A stretch of 64,000 nt of DNA from Giardia muris. Its lineage: Eukaryota > Fornicata > Diplomonadida > Hexamitidae. Both the position numbers and the translations under genes were made by a program. Shown piece by piece: positions 28,145-59,107 of this stretch (positions within the stretch are counted from its first letter, which is position 1; each line of letters opens with the position of its first letter). The notes beneath the pieces were generated by a model. It was not told the DNA's origin, made no database searches, and saw only the letters and a program-made list of their open reading frames with translations. Location of the stretch: assembly GCA_006247105.1 (NCBI GenBank), contig CM016926.1:2334648-2398647 (forward strand), written 5' to 3'.

Positions 28145-28951
28145 TTACTGAATTAAGGATTCCAGGTGCTCAATCTGTGATAGCTTCAGATCGCAATCTC
28201 CATTCTCGAGCAGTTCCTTCAACAGAGCCTTGCTCGCTTCAAGCTCCGTCTCAACAAGGGCGTCAACACAGTCCATATGGCCTTCGCTGGCGGCAACGAT
28301 CAGAGCTGTCCATCCCTCACTGTTCTCTCCTTTGAGCACTCGATTTGCCTCGTAAGGGATCAATAGCTTTAAGCACTCGAGCCTTCCGTCGTAAGCTGCC
28401 CACATGAGGGCGGTCCAACCATCCGGTTGCGCCTTTCCAGCTTGAGTCGGAATCAATAGCTCTGTGCTTTTCTGATGGCCCGCCTTAGCAGCCATCATGA
28501 GTGCTGTGAAGCCCTCTCCGAATGGAAATATATCTGTTGTAACGAGATCGCCCTCCTTTTCCAAGAGGAGGGCGACAATGTCTGCATGTCCATGTTGAGC
28601 TGCCTCGAGTAAAGCGGTCATTCCATCGTTGCAACACATGCCAGCCTCGCGGATAAGTAGCTTGGCACACTCCAGATGGCCAAGAGCGGCAGAAAACATC
28701 AAAGCGGTCCAACCGACAGGGTTTCTATTCCCCTCTTCAAAAGGAAGGATACGTGCGACTGCATCTGTATTTCCACGGGCAGCTGCGATCATAAGGGCTG
28801 ACGGATGAGGAATGTTCCAAGATCCGAAGGTATACATCCCTTGGAGGACCTGACCGGCTTGACCCAGAAGCTCATCGGTGACTACCCCACCCTCTGCTGC
28901 CTCCATCAATTGAGTCCATGTGGCTTCAGGATGAGTCGAATTCTGCACCAT
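28145..28951 (-). CDS. Ankyrin-repeat protein (Giardia protein 21.1 type)
   Basis: 268 residues made almost entirely of about seven ankyrin repeats of 30-33 residues. Several carry the usual GWTALMxAAxxGHxxCxKLLI consensus, for example GWTALMFSAALGHLECAKLLI and GWTALMWAAYDGRLECLKLL. No kinase, RING or membrane part is attached. Such ankyrin-only proteins are a large family in Giardia, probably protein-binding scaffolds. The exact partner is unknown. The ATG at 28951 sits in GGGTAAAAAATGG, where the TAA is the stop codon of the upstream minus-strand gene. Confidence 0.88.
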   Translation of the reverse strand: MVQNSTHPEATWTQLMEAAEGGVVTDELLGQAGQVLQGMYTFGSWNIPHPSALMIAAARGNTDAVARILPFEEGNRNPVGWTALMFSAALGHLECAKLLIREAGMCCNDGMTALLEAAQHGHADIVALLLEKEGDLVTTDIFPFGEGFTALMMAAKAGHQKSTELLIPTQAGKAQPDGWTALMWAAYDGRLECLKLLIPYEANRVLKGENSEGWTALIVAASEGHMDCVDALVETELEASKALLKELLENGDCDLKLSQIEHLESLIQ

Positions 28952-28954
28952 TTT

Positions 28955-31432: not shown

Positions 31433-31469
31433 TTTGTTCAGTCTGCAGTACTCCAGGAAAATTGGACGG
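31433..31469. promoter_or_regulatory. 37-bp bidirectional start region
   Basis: This short interval separates the ATG at 31432 (minus strand) from the ATG at 31470 (plus strand). The side next to 31432 is AT-rich (ATTTTGTTCA on the + strand). Confidence 0.35.
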
Positions 31470-33575: not shown

Positions 33576-33581
33576 CATCGG

Positions 33582-33588
33582 TTTACTA
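33582..33588 (-). terminator. Polyadenylation signal AGTAAAC
   Basis: An exact AGTRAAY match on the minus strand, 9 bp beyond the TAG stop (33598-33600) of the ankyrin-pseudokinase gene. Confidence 0.5.
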
Positions 33589-33597
33589 GTCAAGGGC

Positions 33598-35247: not shown

Positions 35248-35506
35248 TTTTCGAGCCATGGCCTGCTGGGTTTTGAGCCTTAGAGACATCTTCAAGAGCA
35301 ACGAAGGGGAGATAAAGGTCTTATAAGAGGTGTGTGACACGGAGAAGGCCAAGATGAGGGTTGAGAACAGGTCTTTTTCGATCTGACATGCCTGGGTTAG
35401 AGGGACCTGGGTGGTGACGCGTGTGGCTCTGCAGATCTCAGGGTCGCGTCCTCGCCGAGGCAGAGAGAGAAGGATCCAAACCAATTCGAATCGAGTTTCC
35501 TCAAGA
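35248..35506. promoter_or_regulatory. Upstream region of the head VSP gene (putative expression site)
   Basis: 259 bp between the divergent starts of the pseudokinase and VSP unit 1, the largest spacer left of the array. It contains CTTATAAGA near 35311, an AT-rich AACCAATTCGAATCGAGTTT near 35479-35498, and CTCAAGAATG at the VSP start. None of the nine downstream VSP units has a copy of this region. Its promoter role is inferred from position. Confidence 0.4.
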
Positions 35507-37168
35507 ATGTTAGTTGCGCTAGTCTTGACAGCCAGTGCAGTACTCGGGACGATCGACCGCTCCTCCGGGAGAGCAGTACCGGAGATCGACGTCCTCGAGG
35601 GCTCGATGGAGGTGAAGGCTCGAGATGCGGGGGCGTGTGCAGCTGATTCGACCTTCACCATCCCGGGGGTTGAGGGAGAGTTCTGCAAGAAGTGCAGTGA
35701 GACGGGTGAGGCCCCGATCAATGGGGCTTGTGCGGATCCAAGCACCGTTACGACTGCTGAATGTGCCAATGGTGTCTGTACGGGATGTGGAACAGGAACG
35801 GACTACTTCCTCTTCTATGGTGGGTGCTACAAGACGGACTCCTCTCCCGGGAACAAGCTCTGCAAGACCGTGGTTGCTGGGAAGTGCACTGTTCTCCAGG
35901 ATAACTCCCCCGCCTTCATCAAGAGTGAGGTTCTCTACCTCTGCAGTGACACCTCAGAAGATGCAGGAGGAAAAGAGAACTGCGGTACATGCACCTATGC
36001 GGCCCCAACTCCAGGAGGGAACTCAGGTGGAAACGGAGGTTCGACCACCTCCCGTAACGGAGAGGTCTTCACCTGCAAGTCCTGCCTTCCCGGCTTTGGC
36101 CTTGTTGGAGAGACTGGCAAGACCTGCAAGGCCTGTACCATCCAGAACTGCAAGACGTGCGACACGGACGAGAAGACCTGCAAGGTCTGCCTCCCCTCCT
36201 TCGGCCCGACCTACAGCTCCTCCCTTGCCATCACGTCCTGCGACTCCTGTCCCAAGAACTGCACCTCCTGCACCAACCTCGGTCCGGGGCTCGTCTGCAC
36301 CGAGTGTCAGACTGATCAGGCCCCGATCGACGGGGGGTGTGTTCCTGCAAACGAGACCACCAAGAAGGTCTGCGCCGACTCCTCCGGACACTGCACGTCC
36401 TGCCTCAATGGATACGTCCCCTACCTCGAGGGATGCTACTCGACCTTCAAGGCCGCCGAGCTGGGCGTCTGTGCGAAGGAGAAGCAGTTCCTGGTCGGGA
36501 ACACGACGGTCTGCTCCGAGTGCAAGCCGGGCTTCGTCCCGATCAACGGAGAATGCCTTCTGGTCGCCTCGACGAACGTGACGAGGGCGACCCAGATCTG
36601 CCAGAAGGAGGACGGAAGCGCCCCCGACGCGTCCTCCACGAGGTGCGGGAAGTGCCAGGACGTGACCGGGACCCCGGCTACTCAGTTCTTCCTCCTCAAC
36701 GGGGGCTGCTACAACGCCTCCACGGAGGTCGGGAAGAGCGCCTGCACCACGGCCTCTGGTGGGGTCTGCACAGCTGTCAAGGCTGACTCGGGCCTCTACC
36801 TCGACAACAACGTCCTCGTCTCCTGCTCCTCGAAGGTCCCGGGGTGCGGGGCCTGCACCTCCTCGAGCGGTGCCGTCACCTGCACGTCCTGCGGCTTCGG
36901 GTACTACAACGCCAATACCAATGCTTCTGCCACCCCCGACTGCAAGGCGTGCTCGATCTACCACTCGGGCTGCACGGGATGCAACACGACGGCCTGCACG
37001 ACCTGCTGGGACGGGTCATCCTTCAATGGGACCTGCCCCTCTCCCCCCTCCTCCAGTTCTTCGGGGCTCTCTGGGGGTGCCATTGCGGGGATCGTCATCG
37101 CCGTCCTGCTGGTGCTGGGAGGCCTCGGGGGCTTCCTCGGTTGGTGGTTCGGGTGCAGGGGGAAGTGA
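35507..37168 (+). CDS. Variant-specific surface protein, unit 1 (complete, with signal peptide)
   Basis: 553 residues. The ATG at 35507 begins a secretory signal (MLVALVLTASAVLG). About 30 residues unique to this unit follow, then the shared VSP body from STFTIPGVEG. The body is packed with CxxC pairs, GGCY motifs preceded by YFLFY or FFLLN, and repeated PINGxC blocks, as in Giardia VSPs, which coat the trophozoite and are exchanged in antigenic variation. A stalk of serines precedes one membrane helix (about 524-549) and the cytoplasmic tail CRGK. The TGA stop overlaps AGTGAAT. It is the only unit with start codon, signal peptide and own upstream region. Its 5' body equals unit 9, its middle unit 7, and its 3' half units 4 and 8. 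Confidence 0.93.
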   Translation: MLVALVLTASAVLGTIDRSSGRAVPEIDVLEGSMEVKARDAGACAADSTFTIPGVEGEFCKKCSETGEAPINGACADPSTVTTAECANGVCTGCGTGTDYFLFYGGCYKTDSSPGNKLCKTVVAGKCTVLQDNSPAFIKSEVLYLCSDTSEDAGGKENCGTCTYAAPTPGGNSGGNGGSTTSRNGEVFTCKSCLPGFGLVGETGKTCKACTIQNCKTCDTDEKTCKVCLPSFGPTYSSSLAITSCDSCPKNCTSCTNLGPGLVCTECQTDQAPIDGGCVPANETTKKVCADSSGHCTSCLNGYVPYLEGCYSTFKAAELGVCAKEKQFLVGNTTVCSECKPGFVPINGECLLVASTNVTRATQICQKEDGSAPDASSTRCGKCQDVTGTPATQFFLLNGGCYNASTEVGKSACTTASGGVCTAVKADSGLYLDNNVLVSCSSKVPGCGACTSSSGAVTCTSCGFGYYNANTNASATPDCKACSIYHSGCTGCNTTACTTCWDGSSFNGTCPSPPSSSSSGLSGGAIAGIVIAVLLVLGGLGGFLGWWFGCRGK

Positions 37169-37174
37169 GTGAAT
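37168..37174 (+). terminator. VSP polyadenylation signal AGTGAAT (one per unit)
   Basis: AGTGAAT begins on the last base of the TGA stop and fits AGTRAAY. The same seven bases occur at the stop of every unit: 38692, 40571, 42167, 44058, 45977, 47453, 49047, 50586 and 52502. The final AT of the signal also forms the ATG of the following linker. Confidence 0.65.
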
Positions 37175-37192
37175 GGTGAAGGGGAAGGATGA

Positions 37193-38692
37193 GACGGGGG
37201 TGGTTCGACCTTCACCATCCCAGGGGTTGAGGGGACGTTCTGCAAGAAGTGCGATGCCACGACTGACACTGGCTCCGCCCCTGTCAACGGGCTCTGTGAC
37301 ACTGATGCGGCCACCACGATTGGGAATGGTGCTACTTGTGCTGATGGTGCCTGCACAGGATGTGGAACGGGGAACTACTTCCTGTTCAACGGGGGCTGTT
37401 ATGACCAGACCAAGGCGCCTGGGAACAAGCTGTGCTCCGCCCTCCAGGATACAAAGAACGGAACCTGCAAGACGGCTCCAACTACCGATGCCATCACCTT
37501 CGTCAAGGACAGCAACCTCTACCTCTGTAGCGATGCGACGAACGGGGAACCGGGCTGCAGCACCTGCACCTATGCCTCAGATGTCCTCACCTGCAACTCG
37601 TGCCTCGAGGGCTTCTACCCCAACACCACCACCACTTCCGACCCCGTCAACTGCACGGCCTGCACCGTCCAGAACTGCAAGACGTGCTCCTCCTCCGCCT
37701 GCTCCGAGTGCGCTTCCGGGTTCGGGCCCGTCTACGACTCATCCCTCGTCATCACGAACTGCACCTCCTGCCCCGCAGACTGCACCGAGTGCGCCGACCA
37801 GGGCTTCTCGACCATCTGCGAGAAGTGCGGAACGGGGAAGGTCCCCATCGACGGGAACTGCTCCACGAACTCGAACGTCTGCACGACTCCATCACCCCCA
37901 GACGGGACCTGCTCGTCCTGCAAGAACGGGTTCCTCTTCTACCAGGGCGGGTGTCTCTCCCCCCAGAAGGCGGCGGACCTCAAGGTCTGTGCCCTGGGAA
38001 GCCAGCTCCTCGTCGGGAACACGACCGTCTGTACCGAGTGCAAGGGGGGCTTCGTCCCGATCGACGGGGAGTGTCTTCCGATCAAGCAGATCAACACGGG
38101 GACAACGAGGGCAGGTCAGAACATCTGCCTCGACGAGAAGGGGAACAAGGTCTCGGACACCGCCACGAAGTGCGGGGCCTGCATCAGTACGGCAGTCAAC
38201 ACCAACAACTACTTCCTCTTCAACGGGGGGTGCTACCCCATCTCGGCCGCGGGGTCTTCCTCCTCTTCCTCCGTCGGGAGCCTCCTCTGCTCGGCGGCCT
38301 CCAACGGGAAGTGCACTACTCCCGCCTCCAACGCCCCCTTCATCCTCAATACGACCTCAGGCGCCTTCACGGCCTGTCCGAAGGAGTGCGGGGCCTGCAC
38401 CTCCTCGACCGCCTGCAGCTCCTGCGGTCTCGGGTACTACAGCAACTCTACTGTGACCGGCCCCTCCGACTGCACGGCCTGTCCCAGTGGGTGCACCTCC
38501 TGTCCAAATGGGAAGTGCGCCCTCTGCTGGGACGGCTCCACTCCCACCAACAATGCCTGCCCCCCTCCCCCCTCCTCCAGCTCCTCGGGGCTCTCTGGGG
38601 GTGCCATTGCGGGGATCGTCATCGCCGTCCTGCTGGTGCTGGGAGGCCTCGGGGGCTTCCTCGGTTGGTGGTTCGGGTGCAGGGGGAAGTGA
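37193..38692 (+). pseudogene. Headless VSP cassette, unit 2 (class A)
   Basis: An open VSP frame of 499 codons without a start codon. TGA at 37190-37192 closes the frame just before GGSTFTIPGVEG, and no in-frame ATG occurs upstream. The linker ATG (37173) reads a different frame. The body has the full set of CxxC and GGCY motifs, stalk, membrane helix and CRGK. From about 37380 onward it is nearly identical to unit 9. It lacks signal peptide and promoter, so I infer a silent donor copy. Confidence 0.8.
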
Positions 38693-38696
38693 GTGA

Positions 38697-40571
38697 ATGG
38701 TGAAGGGGGGAGGGAAGAACGCGAGAGTCCTCTCGTGCACGGAAGGAGAGACATCAGGCGACAGCAAGACGGGGAGCTGCCTCGACCTCGGGACGCTGGG
38801 GAGGGTCTGCAAGGAGTGCGCGACCACGACCGAGGCCTCGATCGACGGGACGTGCAGCTCGACCGTCGGGAGCAACACGTGTTCCAATGGTGTCTGCACG
38901 GCATGTACAGGGACCTACTTCCTCTTCTACGGGGGGTGCTACAACCAGGCAGGAACAGAGGGTGCTGCTCTCTGCAAGACGGCCACCAAAGGGCAGTGCT
39001 CAGAGAGGGCTGATGCTGCGACGGGCATCTTCGTGAAGGGGAGTAACTCCAACCCCTCAGGCCTCTACACCTGCGACGACGAGACGAACGGGGTTCCCAA
39101 CTGCAAGACCTGCACCTCCCCCGCCACCAACAAGCCGACCTGCACGGAGTGCGCCTCCGGGTTCGGGCCTGTCGTGGAGAGCCTCGATGCACCAACGATC
39201 ACCTCCTGTGTCAGCTGCTCATCGGACGAGAACTGCAAGAGCTGCATGCAGATCGGGACCAGCTTCGTGTGTCTCGAGTGCAATGCTGACACTCACGTCC
39301 CCGTCGACGGGAAGTGCGTCCCCAAGGACAGTGCCTCCTCCTGCACCCCTGCCTCCAGCGCCGGGAAGTGCACGGCCTGCAAGGAGGGGAGCCTCTTCTT
39401 CCACGACGGCTGCTTCAGCCCCGAGAGCCTCAAGAGCCTCGGGATCTGCCTCGAGTCCTTCTCCGTCCCGGGCTGGTCTGAGGTCCTCTGCGGTAAGTGC
39501 GGGAAGGGGCTCGCCCCCGTCGACGGGAGGTGTCTGAAGGTGGAAGGGGGGAAGGCCGATTCGACCAGCTCATGCACGACGAGCCAAAAGGACACCCAGG
39601 TCGGGGTCTGCAACTCCTGTGGGTCCTCGAACACCCACTTCCTCTTCAACGGGGGGTGCTACGACCAGTCAAAGGGGGTCGGGAACAAGCTGTGCAGTGC
39701 AACCCCCTCCTCTGGAGCGTGTTCGACCCCGACTTCCATCGCCTTCCTCAAGGACACCAAGCTCTACCTCTGCGGGGATGCGACGAACGGGAAGGCGAAC
39801 TGCAACACCTGCACCTACTCCACGTCCTTCTCCTGCACGTCCTGCCTCAACGGATGCATGCTCTCCAACTCCTCCTGCCTCTCCTCCTTCGATGCGGACA
39901 AGACGGGCCTCTGTGCCAGGAGCAACCAGCTTCTCGTCGGGGAGGCCCTGGTGTGCAAGGAGTGCAAGAAGGGAAGCGTTCCGATCGACGGGACGTGCCT
40001 CGAGGTCAGTTCGACCCTCTCGAGGACGGCCACCAACGACGTCTGCATGAAGGCCGACGGGAAGACTCCTGTCGACGGGACCGCCACGATGTGCGAGAAC
40101 TGCTCGACGACCTACTTCCTCTTCGAGGGGGGCTGCTACCCCGTGACTCCGAACTCCGTCGGGAGTAAGCTGTGCTCATCGGCCTCCAATGGTCAGTGCA
40201 CTACTGCTGCCAGTGGCTCCCCCTTCCCCCTCTCCAATGGCGTCTTCACCCTCTGTCCGGCCGGGTGTGGGGCCTGCACGAACGCGACCGCCTGCACGTC
40301 CTGCGGTCTCGGGTACTACAACACGACCTCCGTCGCCTCCTCCTCTGACTGCAAGGCCTGCCCCAGTGGCTGCACGACGTGCTCCGCCTCGGCCTGCATC
40401 ACGTGCTGGGACGGGAGTGCTCCGACCGACGGGAAGTGCAGTGCCGTCCCCTCCTCCAGCTCCTCGGGGCTCTCGGGGGGTGCCATTGCGGGGATCGTCA
40501 TTGCCGTCCTGCTGGTGCTGGGAGGCCTCGGGGGCTTCCTCGGTTGGTGGTTCGGATGCAGGGGGAAGTGA
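38697..40571 (+). CDS. VSP cassette, unit 3 (class B, ATG but no signal peptide)
   Basis: 624 residues if read from the linker ATG at 38697. The N-terminus MVKGGGKNARVLSCTEG is basic and polar, not a signal peptide, so the product would not enter the secretory pathway. The frame is joined to the ATG only because the linker has six G residues (38705-38710) rather than four. The body carries repeated CxxC, four GGCY-type motifs (one reading HDGCFS) and the standard tail. It is closely similar to units 5, 6 and 10. I infer a silent donor, although translation cannot be excluded. Confidence 0.75.
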   Translation: MVKGGGKNARVLSCTEGETSGDSKTGSCLDLGTLGRVCKECATTTEASIDGTCSSTVGSNTCSNGVCTACTGTYFLFYGGCYNQAGTEGAALCKTATKGQCSERADAATGIFVKGSNSNPSGLYTCDDETNGVPNCKTCTSPATNKPTCTECASGFGPVVESLDAPTITSCVSCSSDENCKSCMQIGTSFVCLECNADTHVPVDGKCVPKDSASSCTPASSAGKCTACKEGSLFFHDGCFSPESLKSLGICLESFSVPGWSEVLCGKCGKGLAPVDGRCLKVEGGKADSTSSCTTSQKDTQVGVCNSCGSSNTHFLFNGGCYDQSKGVGNKLCSATPSSGACSTPTSIAFLKDTKLYLCGDATNGKANCNTCTYSTSFSCTSCLNGCMLSNSSCLSSFDADKTGLCARSNQLLVGEALVCKECKKGSVPIDGTCLEVSSTLSRTATNDVCMKADGKTPVDGTATMCENCSTTYFLFEGGCYPVTPNSVGSKLCSSASNGQCTTAASGSPFPLSNGVFTLCPAGCGACTNATACTSCGLGYYNTTSVASSSDCKACPSGCTTCSASACITCWDGSAPTDGKCSAVPSSSSSGLSGGAIAGIVIAVLLVLGGLGGFLGWWFGCRGK

Positions 40572-40595
40572 GTGAATGGTGAAGGGGAAGGATGA

Positions 40596-42167
40596 GACGG
40601 GGGTGGTTCGACCTTCACCATCCCAGGGGTTGAGGGGACGTTCTGCAAGAAGTGCGATGTCTCGACTAACACTAACTCCGCCCCTGTCAACGGGCTCTGT
40701 GACACTGCTGCGGCCACCACGATTGGGAATGGTGCTACTTGTGGTAGTGGTGCCTGCACGGCCTGCCCAGATCCGTACTTCCTCTTCAACGGGGGGTGCT
40801 ACAAGACGGACACCTCTCCCGGGAACAAGCTCTGCAAGACGGCCACCGGGGGGAAGTGCACAGCTGCCCCGGACAAGGACGCGGTCACCTTCGTCAAGAG
40901 TGACACCCTCTACCTCTGCAGTGACAGCACGAACGGGAAGGCGAACTGCAACACCTGCACCTATGACTCGACCTTCAAGTGCACCTCCTGTGCCAGTGGC
41001 TTCCTCCCCAAGGGGGACGGGAGCTGCGTCTCCTGTAGTGACACCACCAAGTGCTCCAACTGTGCCCAGGTGAGTGCTGAGAACACCTGCTCCGCCTGCA
41101 GCCCCGGCTTCGGCCTTCTTGCCGACTCGACCTGCAAGGCCTGTACCATCCAGAACTGCAAGACGTGCGACAAGGACGAGAAGATCTGCAAGGTCTGCCT
41201 CCCCTCCTTCGGCCCGACCTACAACTCCTCCCTTGCCATCACGTCCTGCGACTCCTGTCCCAAGAACTGCACCTCCTGCACCAACCTCGGTCCGGGGCTC
41301 GTCTGCACCGAGTGTCCGACTGGTCAGGCCCCGATCGACGGGACGTGCGTGGATAAGAACGACAAGGTCTGCACCGACTCCTCCGGCACCTGCACGTCCT
41401 GCCTCAATGGATACGTCCCCTACCTCGATGGATGCTACTCGACCTTCAAGGCCGCCGAGCTGGGCGTCTGTGCGAAGGAGAAGCAGTTCCTGGTCGGGAA
41501 CACGACGGTCTGCTCCGAGTGCAAGCCGGGCTTCGTCCCGATCAACGGAGAGTGCTTCCCGGTCGCCTCGACGAGCGTGACGAGGGCGACCCAGATCTGC
41601 CAGAAGGAGGACGGAACCGCCCTCGATGCGTCCTCCACGAGGTGCGGGAAGTGCCAGGACGTGACCGGGACCCCGGCTACTCAGTTCTTCCTCCTCAACG
41701 GGGGCTGCTACAACGCCTCCACGGAGGTCGGGAAGAGCGCCTGCACCACGGCCTCTAATGGGGTCTGCACAGCTGTCAATACCACCTCGGGCCTCTACCT
41801 CGACAACAACGTCCTCGTCTCCTGCTCCTCGAAGGTCCCGGGGTGCGGGGCCTGCACCTCCTCGAGCGGTGCCGTCACCTGCACGTCCTGCGGCTTCGGG
41901 TACTACAACGCCAATACCAATGCTTCTGCCACCCCCGACTGCAAGGCGTGCTCGATCTACCACTCGGGCTGCACGGGATGCAACACGACGGCCTGCACGA
42001 CCTGCTGGGACGGGTCATCCTTCAATGGGACCTGCCCCTCTCCCCCCTCCTCCAGTTCTTCGGGGCTCTCTGGGGGTGCCATTGCGGGGATCGTCATCGC
42101 CGTCCTGCTGGTCCTGGGAGGCCTCGGGGGCTTCCTCGGTTGGTGGTTCGGGTGCAGGGGGAAGTGA
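40596..42167 (+). pseudogene. Headless VSP cassette, unit 4 (class A)
   Basis: 523 open codons after the TGA at 40593-40595, with no start codon. The first third (CDVSTNTNSAPVNGLC onward) matches unit 8. The 3' part from about 41650 is nearly identical to the expressed-type unit 1 and to unit 8, including the NNVLVSCSSKVPGCGAC block. The membrane helix and CRGK are intact. Confidence 0.8.
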
Positions 42168-42171
42168 GTGA

Positions 42172-44058
42172 ATGGTGAAGGGGGGAGGGAAGAACGCGAG
42201 AGTCCTCTCGTGCACGGAAGGAGAGACATCAGGCGACTGCAAGACGGGGAGCTGCCTCGACCTCGGGACGCTGGGGAGGGTCTGCAAGGAGTGCGCGACC
42301 ACGACCGAGGCCTCGATCGACGGGACGTGCAGCTCGGCTATTGAGAGCAACACGTGTTCCAATGGTGTCTGCACGGCATGCGCAGGGACCTACTTCCTCT
42401 TCTACGGGGGGTGCTACAACCAGGCCAGTGGAGGCGAGGGCGCTGCTCTCTGCAAGACGGCCACCAAAGGGCAGTGCTCAAAGAGGGCCGAGGATGCGAC
42501 AGGCATCTTCGTGAAGGGGAGCAAGGATGCTCCAACCGGCCTCTACACCTGTGATGATAAGACGAACGGGGTTCCCAACTGCAAGACCTGCACCTCCCCC
42601 GCCGCCGACAAGCCGACCTGCACGGAGTGCGCCTCCGGATTCGGGCCTGTCGTGGAGAGCCTCGATGCACCAACGATCACCTCCTGCGTCAACTGCTCAT
42701 CGAACGAGAACTGCAAGAGCTGCATGCAGATCGGGACCAGCTTCGTGTGTCTCGAGTGCAATGCTGACACTCACGTCCCCGTCAACGGGAAGTGCGTCCT
42801 CAAGGACAGTGCCTCCTCCTGCACCCCTGCCTCCAGCGCCGGGAAGTGCACGGCCTGCAAGGAGGGGAGCCTCTTCTTCCACGACGGCTGCTTCAGCCCC
42901 GAGAGCCTCAAGAGCCTCGGGATCTGCCTCGAGTCCTTCTCCGTCCCGGGCTGGTCCGAGGTCCTCTGCGGTAAGTGCGGGAAGGGGCTCGCCCCCGTCG
43001 ACGGGAGGTGTCTGAAGGTGGAAGGGGGGAAGGCCGATTCGACCAGCTCATGCACGACGAGCCAAGAGGGGACTCAGGTCGGGGTCTGCAACTCCTGTGG
43101 GTCCTCGAGCACCCACTTCCTCTTCAACGGGGGGTGCTATGCCCAGTCAAAGGAGCCCGGGAGCAAGCTGTGCAAGGCAATGACGACTCGGACGGCAGAC
43201 GGGACCTGCTCGACCCCGACCTCCATCGCCTTCCTCAAGGACACCAAGCTCTACCTCTGCGGGGACGCGACGAACGGGAAGGCGAACTGCGACACCTGCA
43301 CCTACTCCGGGTCCTTCTCCTGCACGTCCTGCCTCAACGGATGCATGCTCTCCAACTCCTCCTGCCTCTCCTCCTTCGATGCGGACAAGACGGGCCTCTG
43401 TGCCAGGAGCAACCAGCTTCTCGTCGGGGAGGCCCTGGTGTGCAAGGAGTGCAAGAAGGGAAGTGTTCCGATCGACGGGACGTGCCTCGAGGTCAGCTCG
43501 ACCATCTCGAGGACGGCCACCAACGACGTCTGCATGAAGGCCGACGGGAAGACTCCTGTCGACGGGACCGCCACGAGGTGCGAGAACTGTTCGACGACCT
43601 ACTTCCTCTTCGAGGGGGGCTGCTATCCCGTGACTCCGAACTCCGTCGGGAGCAAGCTGTGTCAAACGGCCTCCAATGGTCAGTGCACTACTGCTGCCAA
43701 TGGCTCCCCCTTCCCCCTCTCCAGTGGCGTCTTCACCCTCTGTCCGGCCGGTTGTGGGGCCTGCACGAACGCGACCGCCTGCACGTCCTGCGGTCTCGGG
43801 TACTACAACACGACCTCCGTCGCCTCCTCCTCTGACTGCAAGGCCTGCCCCAGTGGCTGCACGACGTGCTCCGCCTCGGCCTGCATCACGTGCTGGGACG
43901 GGAGTGCCCCGACCGACGGGAAGTGCAGTGCCGTCCCCTCCTCCAGTTCTTCGGGGCTCTCGGGGGGTGCCATTGCGGGGATCGTCATCGCCGTCCTGCT
44001 GGTGCTGGGAGGTCTCGGGGGCTTCCTCGGTTGGTGGTTCGGATGTAGGGGGAAGTGA
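42172..44058 (+). CDS. VSP cassette, unit 5 (class B, ATG but no signal peptide)
   Basis: 628 residues from the linker ATG at 42172, in frame thanks to six G residues at 42180-42185, as in unit 3. There is no hydrophobic N-terminus. The body is class B and differs from unit 3 in scattered substitutions and short blocks, for example TTRTADGTCSTPTS, which it shares with units 6 and 10 rather than unit 3. The full 3' end and polyadenylation signal are kept. Confidence 0.75.
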   Translation: MVKGGGKNARVLSCTEGETSGDCKTGSCLDLGTLGRVCKECATTTEASIDGTCSSAIESNTCSNGVCTACAGTYFLFYGGCYNQASGGEGAALCKTATKGQCSKRAEDATGIFVKGSKDAPTGLYTCDDKTNGVPNCKTCTSPAADKPTCTECASGFGPVVESLDAPTITSCVNCSSNENCKSCMQIGTSFVCLECNADTHVPVNGKCVLKDSASSCTPASSAGKCTACKEGSLFFHDGCFSPESLKSLGICLESFSVPGWSEVLCGKCGKGLAPVDGRCLKVEGGKADSTSSCTTSQEGTQVGVCNSCGSSSTHFLFNGGCYAQSKEPGSKLCKAMTTRTADGTCSTPTSIAFLKDTKLYLCGDATNGKANCDTCTYSGSFSCTSCLNGCMLSNSSCLSSFDADKTGLCARSNQLLVGEALVCKECKKGSVPIDGTCLEVSSTISRTATNDVCMKADGKTPVDGTATRCENCSTTYFLFEGGCYPVTPNSVGSKLCQTASNGQCTTAANGSPFPLSSGVFTLCPAGCGACTNATACTSCGLGYYNTTSVASSSDCKACPSGCTTCSASACITCWDGSAPTDGKCSAVPSSSSSGLSGGAIAGIVIAVLLVLGGLGGFLGWWFGCRGK

Positions 44059-44069
44059 GTGAATGGTAA

Positions 44070-45977
44070 AGGGGAGGGAAGAACGCGAGGGCCCTCTCGT
44101 GTACGGAAGGGACGGCATCAGGCAACTGCAAGGCGGGGAGCTGCCTCGACCTCGGGACGCTGGGGAAGGTCTGCAAGGAGTGCAGTGACACGAGCCAGGC
44201 CTCGATCGACGGGACGTGCAAGGCCCCAACAGAGGCGACGGATCATTGTACGAAGGGCAACAATGGGGCCTGCACGGACTGCAATGCAGGCAGTGGGTCC
44301 AACAACTACTTCCTCTTCTACGGGGGGTGCTACAACCAGGCCAGTGGAGGCGAGGGCGCTGCTCTCTGCTCGGCGGCATCGAACGGGAAGTGCTCAAAGA
44401 GGGCTGATACTGCGACGGGCATCTTCGTGAAGGGGAGCGACTCCAACCCCTCAGGCCTCTACACCTGCGACGACGAGACGAACGGGGTTCCCAACTGCAA
44501 GACCTGCACCTCCCCCGCCGCCGACAAGCCGACCTGCACGGAGTGCGCCCCCGGGTTCGGGCCTGTCGTGGAGAGCCTCGATGCACCAACGATCACCTCC
44601 TGCGTCAGCTGCTCATCGGACGAGAACTGCAAGAGCTGCATGCAGATCGGGACCAGCTTCGTGTGTCTCGAGTGCAAGGATGCCACTCACGTCCCCGTCA
44701 ACGGGAAGTGCGTCCTCAAGGACAGTGCCTCCTCCTGCACCCCTGCCTCCAGCGCCGGGAAGTGCACGGCCTGCAAGGAGGGGAGCCTCTTCTTCCACGA
44801 CGGCTGCTTCAGCCCCGAGAGCCTCAAGAGCCTCGGGATCTGCCTCGAGTCCTTCTCCGTCCCGGGCTGGTCCGAGGTCCTCTGCGGTAAGTGCGGGAAG
44901 GGGCTCGCCCCCGTCGACGGGAGGTGTCTGAAGGTGGAAGGGGGGAAGGCCGATCAGACCAGCTCATGCACGACGAGCCAAGATGGAACTCAGGTCGGGG
45001 TCTGCAACTCCTGTGGGTCCTCGAGCACCCACTTCCTCTTCAACGGGGGGTGCTATGCCCAGTCAAAGGGGGTCGGGAGCAAGCTGTGCAAGGCAATGAC
45101 GACTCGGACGGCAGACGGGACCTGCTCGACCCCGACCTCCATCGCCTTCCTCAAGGACGGGAAGCTCTACCTCTGCGGAGACGCGACGAACGGGAAGGCG
45201 AACTGCGACACCTGCACCTACTCCGGGTCCTTCTCCTGCACGTCCTGCCTCAACGGATGCATGCTCTCCAACTCCTCCTGCCTCTCCTCCTTCGATGCGG
45301 ACAAGACGGGCCTCTGTGCCAGGAGCAACCAGCTTCTCGTCGGGGAGGCCCTGGTGTGCAAGGAGTGCAAGAAGGGAAGCGTTCCGATCGACGGGACGTG
45401 CCTCGAGGTCAGCTCGACCATCTCGAGGACGGCCACCAACGACGTCTGCAAGAAGGCCGACGGGACTCCTGTCGACGGGACCGCCACGAGGTGCGAGAAC
45501 TGCTCGACGACCTACTTCCTCTTCGAGGGGGGCTGCTACCCCACGACCACGGGCTCCGTCGGGAGTAAGCTGTGCTCATCGGCCTCCAATGGGAAGTGCA
45601 CTACTGCTGCCAGTGGCTCCCCCTTCCCTCTCAATACGACCTCAGGCGTCTTCACCCTCTGTCCGGCCGGGTGTGGGGCCTGCACGAACGCGACCGCCTG
45701 CACGTCCTGCGGTCTCGGGTACTACAACACGACCTCCGTCACCTCCTCCTCTGACTGCACGGCCTGCCCCAGTGGCTGCACGACGTGCTCCGCCTCGGCC
45801 TGCATCACGTGCTGGGACGGGAGTGCTCCGACCGACGGGAAGTGCAGTGCCGTCCCCTCCTCCAGCTCCTCGGGGCTCTCGGGGGGTGCCATTGCGGGGA
45901 TCGTCATTGCCGTCCTGCTGGTGCTGGGAGGCCTCGGGGGCTTCCTCGGTTGGTGGTTCGGATGCAGGGGGAAGTGA
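44070..45977 (+). pseudogene. Headless VSP cassette, unit 6 (class B)
   Basis: 635 open codons after an in-frame TAA at 44067-44069. This linker reads GGTAAAGG where others have GGTGAAGG. Its G run is four long (44071-44074), which throws the linker ATG (44063) out of frame. The opening block CKAPTEATDHCTKGNNGACTD is shared only with unit 10. The rest follows units 5 and 3. Confidence 0.78.
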
Positions 45978-46001
45978 GTGAATGGTGAAGGGGAAGGATG
46001 A

Positions 46002-47453
46002 GACGGGGGTGGTTCGACCTTCACCATCCCAGGGGTTGAGGGGACGTTCTGCAAGAAGTGCAGTGACACGAGTCAGGCCCCGATCAATGGGGCTTGTGCA
46101 GAGAATCCGACTAATACTGTCTCGGATGCTGAATGTGCCAATGGTGTCTGTACAAAGTGTGGAACAGGTGACTACTTCCTCTTCTATGGTGGGTGCTACA
46201 ACAAGACGGGTGACGTCGGGAAGAAGCTCTGCTCAACCGTCACCAGTGGTGCTTGTACTGCGGCGGCCACGGATGCCATCACCTTCGTCAATGGAGGTAA
46301 GCTCTACCTCTGCAGTGACAACTCGACAGATGCGGGAGGAAAAGAGAACTGCGGGACGTGCACCTACGAGTCGTCCTCAACCACCTTCACCTGTCAGACC
46401 TGCCTTCCCGGCTTTGGCCTTGTTGGAGAGACTGGCAAGACCTGCAAGGCCTGTACCATCCAGAACTGCAAGACGTGCGACACGGACGAGAAGATCTGCA
46501 AGGTCTGCCTCCCCTCCTTCGGCCCGACCTACAACTCCTCCCTTGCCATCACGTCCTGCGACTCCTGTCCCAAGAACTGCACCTCCTGCACCAACCTCGG
46601 TCCGGGGCTCGTCTGCACCGAGTGTCAGACTGATCAGGCCCCGATCGACGGGACGTGCGTGGATAAGAACGACAAGGTCTGCACCGACTCCTCCGGCACC
46701 TGCACGTCCTGCCTCAATGGATACGTCCCCTACCTCGAGGGATGCTACTCGACCTTCAAGGCCGCCGAGCTGGGCGTCTGTGCGAAGGAGAAGCAGTTCC
46801 TGGTCGGGAACACGACGGTCTGCTCCGAGTGCAAGCCGGGCTTCGTCCCGATCAACGGAGAATGCCTTCTGGTCGCCTCGACGAACGTGACGAGGGCGAC
46901 CCAGATCTGCCAGAAGGAGGACGGAAGCGCCCCCGACGCGTCCTCCACGAGGTGCGGGAAGTGCCAGGACGTGACCGGGGCCTCGACCACTAACTTCTTC
47001 CTCCTCAACGGGGGCTGCTACAACGCCTCCACGGAGGTCGGGAAGAGCGCCTGCACCACGGCCTCTAATGGAGTCTGCACAGCTGTCAATCCCGCCTCGG
47101 GCCTCTACCTCAATGGGACCGTCCTCACCTCCTGCGCCCCCGGGTGCGCCACCTGCAAGAGTGGGACGGACTGCACCAAGTGCCTCTCAGTGGGGTACTA
47201 CAACACTACTACTGTGACCGGCCCCTCCGACTGCACGGCCTGTCCCAGTGGGTGCACCTCCTGTCCAAGTGGGAAGTGCGACCTCTGCTGGGACGGCTCC
47301 ACTCCCACCAACAATGCCTGCCCCCCTCCCCCCTCCTCCAGTTCTTCCAGGCTCTCTGGGGGTGCCATTGCGGGGATCGTCATCGCCGTCCTTCTGGTCC
47401 TGGGAGGTCTCGGGGGCTTCCTCGGTTGGTGGTTCGGATGCAGGGGGAAGTGA
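46002..47453 (+). pseudogene. Headless VSP cassette, unit 7 (class A)
   Basis: 483 open codons after TGA at 45999-46001. It is a clear chimera. The 5' and middle parts (PGFGLVGETGKTC onward) match unit 1, the next part matches unit 8 (TGASTTNFFLLNGG), and the 3' part (VTGPSDCTACPSGCTSC) matches units 2 and 9. One residue of the otherwise invariant stalk is changed: SSSSRLSGG instead of SSSSGLSGG near 47350. Confidence 0.8.
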
Positions 47454-47478
47454 GTGAATGGTGAAGGGGGAAGGATGA

Positions 47479-49047
47479 GACGGGGGTGGTTCGACCTTCA
47501 CCATCCCAGGGGTTGAGGGGACGTTCTGCAAGAAGTGCGATGTCTCGACTAACACTAACTCCGCCCCTGTCAACGGGCTCTGTGACACTGCTGCGGCCAC
47601 CACGATTGGGAATGGTGCTACTTGTGGTAGTGGTGCCTGCACGGCCTGCCCAGATCCGTACTTCCTCTTCAACGGGGGGTGCTACAAGACGGACACCTCT
47701 CCCGGGAACAAGCTCTGCAAGACGGCCACCGGGGGGAAGTGCACAGCTGCCCCGGACAAGGACGCGGTCACCTTCGTCAAGAGTGACATCCTCTACCTCT
47801 GCAGTGACAGCACGAACGGGAAGGCGAACTGCGAGACCTGCACATACGACTCGACCTTCAAGTGCACCTCCTGTGCCAAGGACTACCTCCCCAAGACCGA
47901 CGGGAGCTGCGAGACATGCAGTGACACCTCCAAGTGCTCCAACTGTGCCCAGGTGAGTGCTGCCGACACCTGCTCCGCCTGCAGCCCCGGCTTCGGCCTT
48001 GCCGACAAGACCTGCAAGGCCTGCACCATCCAGAACTGCAAGACGTGCGACAAGGACGAGAAGATCTGCAAGGTCTGCCTCCCCTCCTTCGGCCCGACCT
48101 ACAGCTCCTCCCTTGCCATCACGTCCTGCGACTCCTGTCCCAAGAACTGCACCTCCTGCACCAACCTCGGTCCGGGGCTCGTCTGCACCGAGTGTCCGAC
48201 TGATCAGGTCCCGATCGACGGGACGTGCGTGGATAAGAACGACAAGGTCTGCACCGACTCTTCCGGCACCTGCACGTCCTGCCTCAATGGATACGTCCCC
48301 TACCTCGAGGGATGCTACTCGACCTTCAAGGCCGCCGAGCTGGGCGTCTGTGCGAAGGAGAAGCAGTTCCTGGTCGGGAACACGACGGTCTGCTCCGAGT
48401 GCAAGCCGGGCTTCGTCCCGATCAACGGAGAATGCCTTCTGGTCGCCTCGACGAGCGTGACGAGGGCGACCCAGATCTGCCAGAAGGAGGACGGAAGCGC
48501 CCTCGATGCGTCCTCCACGAGGTGCGGGAAGTGCCAGGACGTGACCGGGGCCTCGACCACTAACTTCTTCCTCCTCAACGGGGGCTGCTACAACGCCTCC
48601 ACGGAGGTCGGGAAGAGCGCCTGCACCACGGCCTCTAATGGGGTCTGCACAGCTGTCAATACCACCTCGGGCCTCTACCTCGACAACAACGTCCTCGTCT
48701 CCTGCTCCTCGAAGGTCCCGGGGTGCGGGGCCTGCACCTCCTCGAGCGGTGCCGTCACCTGCACGTCCTGCGGCTTCGGGTACTACAACGCCAATACCAA
48801 TGCTTCTGCCACCCCCGACTGCAAGGCGTGCTCGATCTACCACTCGGGCTGCACGGGATGCAACACGACGGCCTGCACGACCTGCTGGGACGGGTCATCC
48901 TTCAATGGGACCTGCCCCTCTCCCCCCTCCTCCAGTTCTTCGGGGCTCTCTGGGGGTGCCATTGCGGGGATCGTCATCGCCGTCCTGCTGGTCCTGGGAG
49001 GCCTCGGGGGCTTCCTCGGTTGGTGGTTCGGATGCAGGGGGAAGTGA
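47479..49047 (+). pseudogene. Headless VSP cassette, unit 8 (class A)
   Basis: 522 open codons after TGA at 47476-47478. Its linker has a five-base G run (47466-47470), the only one of that length. The body follows unit 4 except for local blocks (CAKDYLPKTDGSCETC; TGASTTNFFLLNGG). The 3' end matches units 1 and 4. Confidence 0.8.
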
Positions 49048-49071
49048 GTGAATGGTGAAGGGGAAGGATGA

Positions 49072-50586
49072 GACGGGGGTGGTTCGACCTTCACCATCCC
49101 GGGGGTTGAGGGAGAGTTCTGCAAGAAGTGCAGTGAGACGGGTGAGGCCCCGATCAATGGGGCTTGTGCGGATCCAAGCACTGTCTCGGATGCTACTTGT
49201 GCCAATGGTGCCTGCACAGGATGTGGAACAGGTGACTACTTCCTGTTCGAGGGAGGCTGTTATGACCAGACCAAGGCGCCTGGGAACAAGCTGTGCTCCG
49301 CCCTCCAGGATACAAAGAACGGAACCTGCAAGACGGCTCCAACTACCGATGCCATCACCTTCGTCAAGGACAGCAACCTCTACCTCTGTAGCGATGCGAC
49401 AAACGGGGAACCGGGCTGCAGCACCTGCACCTATGCGACACCAACTCCACCTACTCCCGGCTCTCGTGCTGGAGAAGTCCTCACCTGCAACTCGTGCCTC
49501 GAGGGCTTCTACCCCAACACCACCACCACTTCCGACCCCGTCAACTGCACGGCCTGCACCGTCCAGAACTGCAAGACGTGCTCCTCCTCCGCCTGCTCCG
49601 AGTGCGCCTCCGGGTTCGGGCCCGTCTACGACTCATCCCTCGTCATCACGAACTGCACCTCCTGCCCCGCAGACTGCACCGACTGCGCCGACCAGGGCTT
49701 CTCGACCATCTGCGAGAAGTGCGGAACGGGGAAGGTCCCCATCGACGGGAACTGCTCCACGAACTCGAACGTCTGCACGACTCCATCACCCCCAGACGGG
49801 ACCTGCTCGTCCTGCAAGAACGGGTTCCTCTTCTACCAGGGCGGGTGTCTCTCCCCCCAGAAGGCGGCGGACCTCAAGGTCTGTGCCCTGGGAAGCCAGC
49901 TCCTCGTCGGGAACACGACCGTCTGTACCGAGTGCAAGGGGGGCTTCGTCCCGATCGACGGGGAGTGTCTTCCGATCAAGCAGATCAACAATGGGACGAC
50001 GAGGGCAGGTCAGGACATCTGCCTCGACGAGAAGGGGAACAAGGTCTCGAACACCGCCACGAAGTGCGGGGCCTGCATCAATACGACAGTCAACACCAAC
50101 AACTACTTCCTCTTCAACGGGGGGTGCTACCCCATCTCGGCCGCGGGGTCTTCCTCCTCTTCCTCCGTCGGGAGCCTCCTCTGCTCATCGGCCTCCAACG
50201 GGAAGTGCACTACTCCCGCCACCAACGCCCCCTTCATCCTCGATGCATCCTCAGGGGCCTTCACGGCCTGTCCGAAGGAGTGCGGGGCCTGCACCTCCTC
50301 GACCGCCTGCAGCTCCTGCGCCCTTGGGTACTACAACACCACTACTGTGACCGGCCCCTCCGACTGCACGGCCTGTCCCAGTGGGTGCACCTCCTGTCCA
50401 AATGGGAAGTGCGCCCTCTGCTGGGACGGCTCCACTCCCACCAACGATGCCTGCCCCTCTCCCCCCTCCTCCAGTTCTTCGGGGCTCTCGGGGGGTGCCA
50501 TTGCGGGGATCGTCATCGCCGTCCTGCTGGTCCTGGGAGGCCTCGGGGGCTTCCTCGGTTGGTGGTTCGGATGCAGGGGGAAGTGA
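49072..50586 (+). pseudogene. Headless VSP cassette, unit 9 (class A)
   Basis: 504 open codons after TGA at 49069-49071. Its first 99 bases (49083-49181) are identical to the corresponding part of unit 1 (35647-35745). From about 49250 it is almost the same as unit 2, with a small local insertion near 49440 (TPTPPTPGSRAGE). This makes it the best visible source for the 5' body of the head gene. Confidence 0.8.
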
Positions 50587-50597
50587 GTGAATGGTGA

Positions 50598-52502
50598 AGG
50601 GGAGGGAAGAACGCGAGGGCCCTCTCGTGCACGGAAGGGACGGCATCAGGCGACTGCAAGGCGGGGAGCTGCCTCGACCTCGGGACGCTGGGGAAGGTAT
50701 GCAAGGAGTGCAGTGACACGAACCAGGCCTCGATCGACGGGACGTGCAAGGCCCCAACAGAGGCGACGGATCATTGTACGAAGGGCAACAATGGGGCCTG
50801 CACGGACTGCAATGCAGGCAGTGGGTCCAACAACTACTTCCTCTTCTACGGGGGGTGCTACAACCAGGCCAGTGGAGGCGAGGGCGCTGCTCTCTGCTCG
50901 GCGGCATCGAACGGGAAGTGCTCAGAGAGGGCCAGTGGTGCGACGGGCATCTTCGTGAAGGGGAGCGACTCCAACCCATCAGGCCTCTACACCTGTGATG
51001 ATAAGACGAACGGGGTTCCCAACTGCAAGACCTGCACCTCCCCCGCCGCCGACAAGCCGACCTGCACGGAGTGCGCCTCCGGGTTCGGGCCTGTCGTGGA
51101 GAGCCTCGATGCACCAACGATCACCTCCTGCGTCAACTGCTCATCGAACGAGAACTGCAAGAGCTGCATGCAGATCGGGACCAGCTTCGTGTGTCTCGAG
51201 TGCAATGGTACCACTCACGTCCCCGTCGACGGGAAGTGCGTCCCCAAGGACAGTGCCTCCTCCTGCACTCCTGCCTCCAGCGCCGGGAAGTGCACGGCCT
51301 GCAAGGAGGGGAGCCTCTTCTTCCACGACGGCTGCTTCAGCCCCGAGAGCCTCAAGAGCCTCGGGATCTGCCTCGAGTCCTTCTCCGTCCCGGGCTGGTC
51401 CGAGGTCCTCTGCGGTAAGTGCGGGAAGGGGCTCGCCCCCGTCGACGGGAGGTGTCTGAAGGTGGAAGGGGGGAAGGCCGATTCGACCAGCTCATGCACG
51501 ACGAGCCAAAATGGAACTCAGGTCGGGGTCTGCGACTCCTGTGGGTCCTCGAGCACCTACTTCCTCTTCAACGGGGGGTGCTACGACCAGTCAAAGGAGC
51601 CCGGGAGCAAGCTGTGCACGGCAATGACGACTCGGACGGCAGACGGGACCTGCTCGACCCCGACCTCCATCGCCTTCCTCAAGGACGGGAAGCTCTACCT
51701 CTGCGGAGACGCGACGAACGGGAAGGCGAACTGCGACACCTGCACCTACTCCACGTCCTTCTCCTGCACGTCCTGCCTCAACGGATGCATGCTCTCCAAC
51801 TCCTCCTGCATCTCCTCCTTCGATGCGGACAAGACGGGCCTCTGTGCCAGGAGCAACCAGCTTCTCGTCGGGGAGGCCCTGGTGTGCAAGGAGTGCAAGA
51901 AGGGAAGTGTTCCGATCGACGGGACGTGCCTCGAGGTCAGCTCGACCATCTCGAGGACGGCCACCAACGACGTCTGCATGAAGGCCGACGGGAAGACTCC
52001 TGTCGACGGAACCGCCACGAGGTGCGAGAACTGCTCGACGAACTACTTCCTCTTCGAGGGGGGCTGCTATCCCACGACCACGGGCTCCGTCGGGAGTAAG
52101 CTGTGCTCATCGGCCTCCAATGGTCAGTGCACAACGAAGGCCACCAACTCCCCCTTCCCTCTCTCCAATGGCGTCTTCACCCTCTGTCCGGCCGGTTGTG
52201 GGGCATGCTCCTCTGCCACCACCTGCACGTCCTGCGGTCTCGGGTACTACAACACGACCTCCGTCACCTCCTCCTCTGACTGCACGGCCTGCCCCAGTGG
52301 CTGCACGACGTGCTCCGCCTCGGCCTGCATCACGTGCTGGGACGGGAGTGCTCCGACCGACGGGAAGTGCAGTGCCGTCCCCTCCTCCAGCTCCTCGGGG
52401 CTCTCTGGGGGCGCCATTGCGGGGATCGTCATCGCCGTCCTGCTGGTGCTGGGAGGCCTCGGGGGCTTCCTCGGTTGGTGGTTCGGGTGCAGGGGGAAGT
52501 GA
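50598..52502 (+). pseudogene. Headless VSP cassette, unit 10 (class B, last of array)
   Basis: 634 open codons after TGA at 50595-50597. The G run is four long (50599-50602). The opening is like unit 6, the centre is like units 5 and 6, and there is a distinct block QCTTKATNSPFPL near 52125. After its stop and polyadenylation signal the linker continues for about 13 bases and then gives way to unrelated sequence. Confidence 0.8.
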
Positions 52503-52597: not shown

Positions 52598-53310
52598 CTA
52601 CGCATCCGGCCACTCAGGATACTCGACGACAAGGGCCTCGTCGGCCTTCCCCCGGCAGTACGGACAGCAGTGCTCGATCCGGTCCGCACAGACGACGAGG
52701 TGCCGGCAGGGAAGGAGGATCGCGTCCTTCTGGCGTGAGAGGCAGACGACGCACCCGTCAACCATTTCGTCCTCACAGAAGGCGTCGTCCAGTGCTCCGG
52801 GCTCGCAGAAGAGTGCCGACCAGACCATCTCTCCGAGCTCCCGGGCCTCCGACTGCTCGATTGGGGACAGGAGGGCAAGGACGTGGTGCGGGTTGAGCAT
52901 CTCCAGCCTCTCCCGTACCTTCCGCATGACCGCCTCCTCCAGGGCATCTGCAACTGCTCGATACGTCCTTGAAGAGTGAGTCAGGCCACTCCCGAACAAG
53001 CCTTCGGATCCCCTCGATGTGCATTCTTCCGTCCCCTTCGTGGACTGCCGCCTCGTCCGCCAGGAGTCTTGCACTCGACCCGGCCCTCCTGGAGTGCAAG
53101 CAGCAGGGCCGTCTCCTTCCGGTTGTTGAACAGCCCCCCCTCGAGTGGAAGGAGCAGGCGGACAGATGGGGGGCGTCCGTGAGAGGCGGCCATCATCAGG
53201 GCTGCATCCCATGAGTCTCGATGCCCACGTGTAGTGTTCCTGACTCCCCCGACGTCCCCAGTTGTGACGGACTCCAAGGACGTCGGTGGCTCCCTGGAGG
53301 GGGATGGGTC
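52598..53310 (-). pseudogene. Decayed ankyrin-RING gene
   Basis: On the minus strand three successive pieces lie in three different frames. First is an ankyrin segment (about 53310-53080) reading DSWDAALMMAASHGRPPSV, with a following repeat ending ALQEGRVECK. Next is a linker piece (about 53080-52965) reading LLADEAAVHEGDGRMHIEG. Last is a helix and RING finger (about 52965-52598) reading CVVCLSRQKDAILLPCRHL then CADRIEHCCPYCRG, of the IAP-like C3HC4 kind. The pieces join smoothly if two frameshifts are assumed, near 53080 and 52970. No convincing start is visible. Ankyrin-RING proteins would act as ubiquitin ligases. This copy looks broken, unless the shifts are assembly errors. Confidence 0.65.
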
Positions 53311-59073: not shown

Positions 59074-59107
59074 CATCGAGAGGGAAGGTACGAGGATGAA
59101 GGCAATG

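Follow-up and report, generated by a model that had tools for sequence, protein, structure and literature searches.

A subtelomeric VSP array of Giardia muris with one leader-bearing gene, nine leaderless units and differing bodies behind one flank

Introduction

Antigenic variation in Giardia has been described as occurring without DNA change (Adam 2010, PMC2996952). The same work describes linear arrays of genes for variant-specific surface proteins (VSPs) in Giardia lamblia, in which the first vsp often has an upstream region and an initiator element (Inr; 12 of 25 first members), no downstream member has an Inr, and the downstream members are proposed to be cassettes. In Giardia muris, tandem leaderless VSPs (psi-VSPs) with their tails pointing endward are reported at nine of ten contig ends, with two psi-VSPs at the tenth, and recombination or gene conversion as well as 'expression sites' have already been proposed for them (Xu 2020, PMC7641422). 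At the level of the class, not of the units treated here, that study describes psi-VSPs as essentially untranscribed and VSPs as expressed; it counts 26 complete VSPs. Here we analyze ten tandem VSP units at positions 35507-52502 of a 64,000-nt stretch of G. muris DNA (GenBank assembly GCA_006247105.1, contig CM016926.1, here C2, positions 2334648-2398647; hereafter the window), which is the last 64 kb of its contig.

We consider it probable, though well short of certain, that this is a subtelomeric VSP locus with one expression-competent gene and nine leaderless in-frame bodies, in which homologous recombination replaces or patches the body of the head gene. The idea of donors has been published before: it was put forward for G. 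lamblia (Adam 2010, PMC2996952), and silent recombining psi-VSP arrays are described in G. muris (Xu 2020, PMC7641422). What is new is that two small contigs, C6 and C7, carry the flank and leader of the right end of C2 with different bodies. Neither allelic bodies behind one flank nor the first-unit rule at ten chromosome ends reported below was found in the literature searched, supplementary files aside. A constant leader and flank with a differing antigen body among contigs of one assembly would directly support the 2010 cassette hypothesis. If, as we regard as unlikely, the C2 right end is the sole chromosome-end expression site of G. muris, antigenic variation there would run through gene conversion, either in addition to the epigenetic/RNA route of G. 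lamblia or in its place. The region at about 30-57 kb of the window is a defined place where long reads can decide.

Results

One head gene and nine leaderless units

The assembly searched comprises 52 contigs (9.74 Mb), of which C1-C5 are the chromosomes, with ten ends; the genome reported by Xu 2020 (PMC7641422) has 9.8 Mb in 59 contigs, five of them longer than 1 Mb. The GCRGK tail and the layout of the array agree with G. muris or a close relative. The window and contig C2 end together, which makes the array subtelomeric; the contig ends 11.5 kb beyond it, with ribosomal DNA (rDNA) in between. The features of the array are as follows.

35290..35506, + strand: private upstream region of unit 1 (promoter side), found otherwise only in C6 and C7; a divergent NEK-ankyrin kinase gene lies on its other side
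35507..35548, + strand: start codon of unit 1 in the context AGAATGTT, with hydrophobic leader MLVALVLTASAVLG
35530..35617, + strand: conserved N-terminal block (N-block) AVLGTIDRSSGRAVPEIDVLEG..., 88 bp, nearly the same at many dispersed VSP loci; the first unit of each of the ten chromosome-end arrays has it
35507..37168, + strand: unit 1, head VSP, 553 aa, frame beginning MLVALVLTASAVLG, mosaic family A body
35647..35664, + strand (also at 37204, 40607, 46013, 47490 and 49083): TTCGACCTTCACCATCCC, 5' homology between the head body and the family A cassettes
37019..37184, + strand (unit 1 copy): 3' homology block spanning membrane helix, GCRGK, stop and AGTGAAT; all ten units agree at 134 of 166 positions
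37169..38692, + strand: unit 2, headless, family A, body 499 aa
38693..40571, + strand: unit 3, leaderless, family B, ATG with polar start, 624 aa
40572..42167, + strand: unit 4, headless, family A, body 523 aa, sharing 748 identical bp with the C5-left first unit
42168..44058, + strand: unit 5, leaderless, family B, ATG with polar start, 628 aa
44059..45977, + strand: unit 6, headless, family B, body 635 aa
45978..47453, + strand: unit 7, headless, family A, body 483 aa
47454..49047, + strand: unit 8, headless, family A, body 522 aa, nearest to the body behind the C7 leader
49048..50586, + strand: unit 9, headless, family A, body 504 aa, directly after the head in C7
50587..52502, + strand: unit 10, headless, family B, body 634 aa

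Unit 1 alone combines a start codon with a hydrophobic stretch, the signal-peptide criterion for a complete Giardia VSP. Judged by hydropathy, its best 8-residue value is 2.85, versus 0.35 for the polar starts (MVKGGGKNARVLSC) of units 3 and 5, the two units of the ten that have an ATG without a leader. The start context AGAATGTT is near the G. lamblia Inr PyAatgTT (Adam 2010, PMC2996952) and recurs at a paired dispersed VSP at C1:1963.9k, whose leader is MFVSLLLVVNAVLA. A whole-assembly search with positions 26001-35500 found three places: the locus itself, C7 and C6. Unit 1 is presumably expressed.

Seven of the ten units (2, 4, 6, 7, 8, 9 and 10) have an in-frame stop right before the body and no start at its beginning; the first methionine stands at residue 190 in units 6 and 10, and units 2, 4, 7, 8 and 9 have none. 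All ten bodies are open for 483-635 codons through to GCRGK and the stop, which the polyadenylation signal AGTGAAT overlaps in every unit. They fall into two families, A (units 1, 2, 4, 7, 8 and 9), beginning TTCGACCTTCACC, and B (units 3, 5, 6 and 10), beginning GAAGAACGCGAG. Each body holds 18-21 CXXC and 2-3 GGCY motifs, the tail matches in 10/10 units (at 37151, 38675, 40554, 42150, 44041, 45960, 47436, 49030, 50569 and 52485), and the four units tested against Pfam VSP (PF03302) all match. In each of these points (the sole leader, the private upstream region, the seven stop-preceded bodies, the polar starts and the open frames) the first-pass annotation, made from the letters of the window alone, was borne out.

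With nine leaderless units the array exceeds the more than three linear leaderless VSPs, tails toward the chromosome end, by which a G. muris psi-VSP array is defined. One copy with private upstream region, start and leader beside nine copies without leader also appears to be the anatomy of a silent-cassette and expression-site system. The 30-nt headless junction occurs at 65 places in the genome (61 exact, four with 2 mismatches) versus none for a reversed-pattern control. The variant junction with 2 mismatches is found at C4:19870, 21436 and 23005 and at C5:19702; on the chromosome 4 cassette read, no in-frame stop precedes the body, which is still leaderless.

Different bodies behind one flank and leader

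The flank of unit 1 matches C7 over 9.4 kb (26063-35500) and C6 over 5.7 kb (29785-35500), at an identity that rounds to 100%. Both matches extend to the ends of these contigs, and there is no further match in the assembly. In the parts compared, identity to the window is exact over 34007-35624 in C7 and over 33748-35617 in C6, after which the bodies diverge; the leader is therefore common to C2, C6 and C7.

In C7 the leader is in frame with an open body of 519 codons, whose best single match is unit 8 (98.4%; 18 mismatches over the last 1407 bp). The C7 stop is followed directly by the start of unit 9, and from there C7 aligns with units 9 and 10 and the far flank in 8712 columns, 99.8% identical, with 2 mismatches and 14 gaps. 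C7 thus continues straight into units 9 and 10, and units 2-7, as well as unit 8 at its own place, are absent from it. Painting the C7 gene at a switch penalty of 3-4 gives leader and block (140 bp, 2 mismatches), a stretch of unit-2 type (154 bp, 2 mismatches), unit 8 (322 bp, 5 mismatches), a tract identical to a chromosome 4 cassette (142 bp) and unit 8 again (943 bp, 3 mismatches). More than one piece is obtained at penalties of up to 6; at a penalty of 8 a single unit 8 piece with 28 mismatches follows the leader, at which setting unit 8 as sole donor of the C7 body would be a fair fit.

C6 has a family B body that is 91.8-92.7% identical to units 10, 3, 6 and 5. The units beyond its head are unlike those of C2 (best 91.9% over 2.6 kb), and further out follow matches that score equal to units 3, 4, 5 and 6. 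Judged by match positions and scores, contig C10 repeats the order of C6 in part. We take C6 and C7 to be probably true alleles or population variants. If they are real, the alternative bodies would mean that the expressed copy keeps a constant flank and changes its body.

Alternate contigs with a changed first unit were also sought at C1-left, C5-left and C3-left. The C5-left and C3-left flanks matched only related loci (93-96%). Four copies of the C1-left first unit (on C39, C40 and C41 and at C1:4025-7318) have 0 substitutions among them, with indels in two, in contrast to the three bodies of C2-right.

Mosaic tracts and exchange partners

Unit 1 of C2 is itself a mosaic. The painting covered loci extracted from part of the genome, and better partners may exist. 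Body positions 7-261 (255 bp) match the first unit of the C1-left array with 0 mismatches, positions 262-735 (474 bp) match a unit at C1:834k with 0 mismatches, and positions 736-971 (236 bp) match the second unit of C6 with 0 mismatches; positions 972-1518 (547 bp) are painted by unit 4 with 10 mismatches. All these partners are leaderless as far as read, and no exchange partner with a leader was found for unit 1 in the part of the genome compared. The genome-wide search with the first third of unit 1 (35738-36160) returned the C1-left first unit and its alternates at 98-99% and C1:834k/845k at 94-96%; the remaining matches reach at most 81% over about 400 bp, 90-91% over 250 bp or 98% over one 80-bp piece. 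The nine local units as sole donors of unit 1 were rejected on account of the chromosome 1 partners.

Among seven family A bodies (546 polymorphic sites), the longest shared run exceeded that of all 2000 permutations in 19 of 21 pairs. The other two pairs, C7 head with unit 4 and unit 4 with unit 8, are about 94-95% alike at these sites and gave p = 0.002 and 0.0065. Family B behaved similarly, with 4 of 6 pairs beyond all 2000 permutations and p = 0.004 and 0.0085 for the other two.

On the small contigs C33, C34, C35 and C46, the outer array units score equal to those on the ends of C2, C3, C4 and C5, and C34 carries units equal in score to both C3-right and C5-left, as if outer arrays had been exchanged between chromosomes.

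Conservation of the open frames

Four pairs of headless units differ by 277 substitutions, among which there are 0 stops versus 6.8 expected under neutral substitution (P = 7.5e-4, the product of the four pair probabilities). All eight indels in these pairs are multiples of three. When unit 1 is compared with the C7 head, unit 4 or unit 8, two of the 8-9 gaps are, taken singly, not multiples of three. The dN/dS of headless pairs is 0.43-0.77 in family A and 0.35-0.71 in family B.

We also surveyed frames through two protein searches, taking the best 150 of 455 and the best 150 of 627 candidates, so that the counts are lower bounds. After removal of small-contig rows and of C1-C5 rows below 50 bits in one search or 150 bits in the other, 177 of 300 rows were kept (100/150 and 77/150) and merged into 162 places on C1-C5. 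With thresholds of our own (near an end, <60 kb; long frame, >=480 codons), and among the matches listed, long frames were found in 92 of 98 block-less units near ends versus 12 of 18 elsewhere (Fisher P = 0.003), and in 10 of 10 N-block units near ends and 17 of 36 elsewhere. Each of the six short block-less frames near ends is the outermost unit at its end among the matches listed, some being cut by the contig end; the edge fragments C5:1132902 and C4:24 fell under the score cut.

Array copies are better kept than dispersed copies. Ordinary decayed pseudogenes, against which the first-pass annotation had also argued, were rejected on the missing stops, the in-frame indels and the open frames near ends. 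Use as recombination partners would predict better-kept array frames, and so would constant refreshing by conversion; open frames alone do not separate selection from recent copying. The annotation read the long open frames as a sign of selection for donor use. We infer that the frames are held open through donor use.

First units at the ten chromosome ends

A 24-nt piece of the N-block (up to 3 mismatches) occurs at 58 places in the genome versus one in a reversed control. At 10/10 ends of C1-C5 it marks the innermost co-directional unit, and none lies farther out; with the block placed at random along each array, the chance of this is about 2.5e-10, as computed from unit counts. At C2-left the evidence consists of a block at 29770 and a tail at 28195 alone. 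Opposite-direction leaderless units lie farther in at C1-right and C4-right, and a second block-bearing unit lies 23 kb farther in at C3-right.

The five left ends have a polar start, MGSSCLRSEPGRPAMLG, upstream of the block (one residue different at C2-left), with two additional in-frame ATGs farther up at C1-left. No in-frame ATG precedes the block at C1-right, and none does in the 23-25 codons read at C3-, C4- and C5-right. Within the stretch read, a start with hydrophobic leader is found only at C2-right, and one end in ten looks expression-competent. The head-plus-headless layout described in the first-pass annotation recurs elsewhere in part: the N-block in the first unit is common to all ends, and a start with leader was seen at this one. 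That C2-right is the sole chromosome-end VSP expression site of G. muris, with its body exchanged at the DNA level with leaderless cassettes in cis and in trans, is a stronger claim that we regard as unlikely.

Of 15 further dispersed or end loci at which a start or leader could be read, C6 and C7 set aside, C3:1123k and C5:478k have a hydrophobic start before the block, which is thus found behind other leaders away from the ends. We rejected the 88-bp block as a signal peptide, and hence as a leader at all ten ends, since it extends past the leader and occurs without one. Xu 2020 (PMC7641422) places an 'intact VSP' at the turning points of two scrambled arrays; at the candidate turning points, C1-right and C4-right, no start with leader was seen in the stretch read, and the two accounts are unreconciled.

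In a small internal array at C1:102k-108k, three headless units follow a unit with the N-block (at 102.2k), and an in-frame stop stands a short way ahead of that block; this is the same layout away from a telomere. Upstream of their first array unit, the five left ends share 1.5 kb of flank (93-96% alike), which also occurs at C1:100.7k, C5:555.8k and C3:107.5k. The N-block of the five right ends is of the other type, and every chromosome seems to pair an end of one class with an end of the other.

Neighboring features

The surroundings of the array contain the following.

Upstream of unit 1, across the private upstream region: NEK-ankyrin kinase gene, divergent
Downstream of the array: ankyrin-repeat gene
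57645-61967: one rDNA unit (SSU, 5.8S, LSU), between the array and the contig end

Just beyond the array, 52662-53259 is 95% identical over 601 bp to the flank of a central tail-to-tail VSP pair at C1:1966k; the flanks of the array edge and of VSP pairs appear to have remnants in common. A frame of 1901 aa at 22439-28141 probably encodes an intraflagellar transport protein: it has a WDR19-like beta-propeller, and its IF140/IFT172 TPR match is weak and below cutoff.

Discussion

The anatomy of the array, its mosaicism and the three contigs with one flank and leader before different bodies are established. The explanation that we favor is the replacement or patching of the head body by recombination. 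The private upstream region, start, leader and N-terminal block of the head would stay fixed, and the body behind the leader would be replaced whole or in segments, by segmental gene conversion and by unequal exchange that deletes intervening units. Partners would be leaderless bodies, both local and from other arrays. Short homology where leader and body join would guide the exchange at its 5' end, and the membrane-helix/tail block, which is nearly invariant, would do so at the 3' end. C7 would be the apparent product of an exchange between head and unit 8, with the intervening units lost and smaller patches added. Co-directional head and cassettes with tails toward the telomere would leave room for this deletion route as well as for copying as far as the chromosome end. 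Transfer mainly into the head and silence of the cassettes are what we presume.

The donor cassettes of the first-pass annotation accordingly hold up as far as a leader-bearing head, in-frame leaderless bodies and evidence of recombination go, with the amendment that partners of unit 1 also lie on chromosome 1. A unit 1 body that never changes, which the annotation took as speaking against donors, is contradicted if C6 and C7 are real. Its contrast with dispersed, complete VSP genes in Giardia intestinalis fails, since Adam 2010 (PMC2996952) describes linear arrays there.

Several observations weigh against the replacement of the head body. The nearest matches to the first third of unit 1 are not local. 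The cassettes are mosaics of one another as well, and shared tracts do not reveal direction; the permutation p can also be lowered where conservation along the body is uneven. The C7 head body has a dN/dS of 1.74 versus unit 8 (25 changes) and 0.94 versus unit 4 (48 changes). Contigs C39, C40 and C41, alternates of C1-left, keep the same first unit with 0 substitutions, so the variation is not general. C6 and C7 are short, and the C6 body and the C7 downstream array have many small indels, so either contig, above all C6, may be chimeric or poorly polished; such indels are as expected of thinly covered or unpolished contigs. If the assembly is that of Xu 2020 (PMC7641422), as we infer, its contigs derive from PacBio RS II reads of cysts from mouse faeces assembled with HGAP. 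Two AI strains of G. lamblia have their VSPs at highly syntenic positions (Baptista 2024, PMC11169602), which warns against assuming fast turnover. Within-isolate structural variants of G. lamblia are enriched for VSPs (PMC7048089), which agrees with exchange.

A possible but rather unlikely alternative is that headless frames stay open through conversion from functional VSPs that refreshes the arrays, expressed genes thus feeding cassettes, and not through donor use. The 748 bp that unit 4 has in common with the C5-left first unit would suit such refreshing, and exchange plainly extends beyond one pair or one array. The identical partners of units 1 and 4, however, are leaderless too as far as read, and the paired, presumably complete VSP at C1:1965k, the one compared, is over its last 1.1 kb only 66-75% like the VSP bodies of the window.

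We think it unlikely that C6 and C7 are assembly chimeras, the head being fixed and the rest a pseudogene array from unequal crossing-over whose frames are open since the copies are recent. Besides the short contigs with unpolished indels, the 95-97% likeness of some headless pairs and the origin of arrays by duplication suggested by Xu 2020 (PMC7641422) speak for it. Yet the C7 head body is fully open and exactly matches no unit compared (28 mismatches separate it from unit 8), C7 agrees with the locus across 9.4 kb before this body and 8.7 kb after it, and C10 partly repeats the C6 order. Recency also fails to explain the absence of stops where 6.8 were expected, or decayed dispersed copies beside open array copies, and unit 1 of C2 is a mosaic with three exact tracts of its own.

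Expression of units 2-10 as leaderless or read-through proteins, for which the open frames with polyadenylation signals and the ATG of units 3 and 5 could be cited, is very improbable given the polar N-termini of these two units, the stops before seven bodies and the report that 'essentially all' psi-VSPs are untranscribed in three stages (Xu 2020, PMC7641422).

Comparison with known systems

Replacement of a head body from leaderless partners has its nearest relatives in the Giardia arrays themselves. For G. muris, the text of Xu 2020 (PMC7641422), its supplement aside, states neither the first-unit N-block rule nor alternative bodies behind one flank. The G. lamblia arrays differ in that the cassette role is a hypothesis only, telomeric vsp genes are rare and no allelic body exchange is described in the parts of Adam 2010 (PMC2996952) covered here.

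Outside Giardia, the Trypanosoma brucei VSG repertoire (PMC8957917) is likewise subtelomeric, largely silent and subject to gene conversion; it has dedicated expression sites with one active at a time. In the vmp system of Borrelia hermsii (PMC6011951), silent genes are set behind one fixed promoter via upstream and downstream homology sequences. There, in a spirochaete, the homology elements were tested experimentally; those of G. muris are putative. The vls locus of Borrelia burgdorferi (PMC11499132) differs in that vlsE and its cassettes, about 90% alike, stand head-to-head and conversion is described as unidirectional, whereas the G. muris array is co-directional with two body families. 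In both, one expression site, a candidate one in G. muris, stands near a telomere beside contiguous, largely open cassettes that are silent, or presumably so in G. muris, and the bodies are segmental mosaics.

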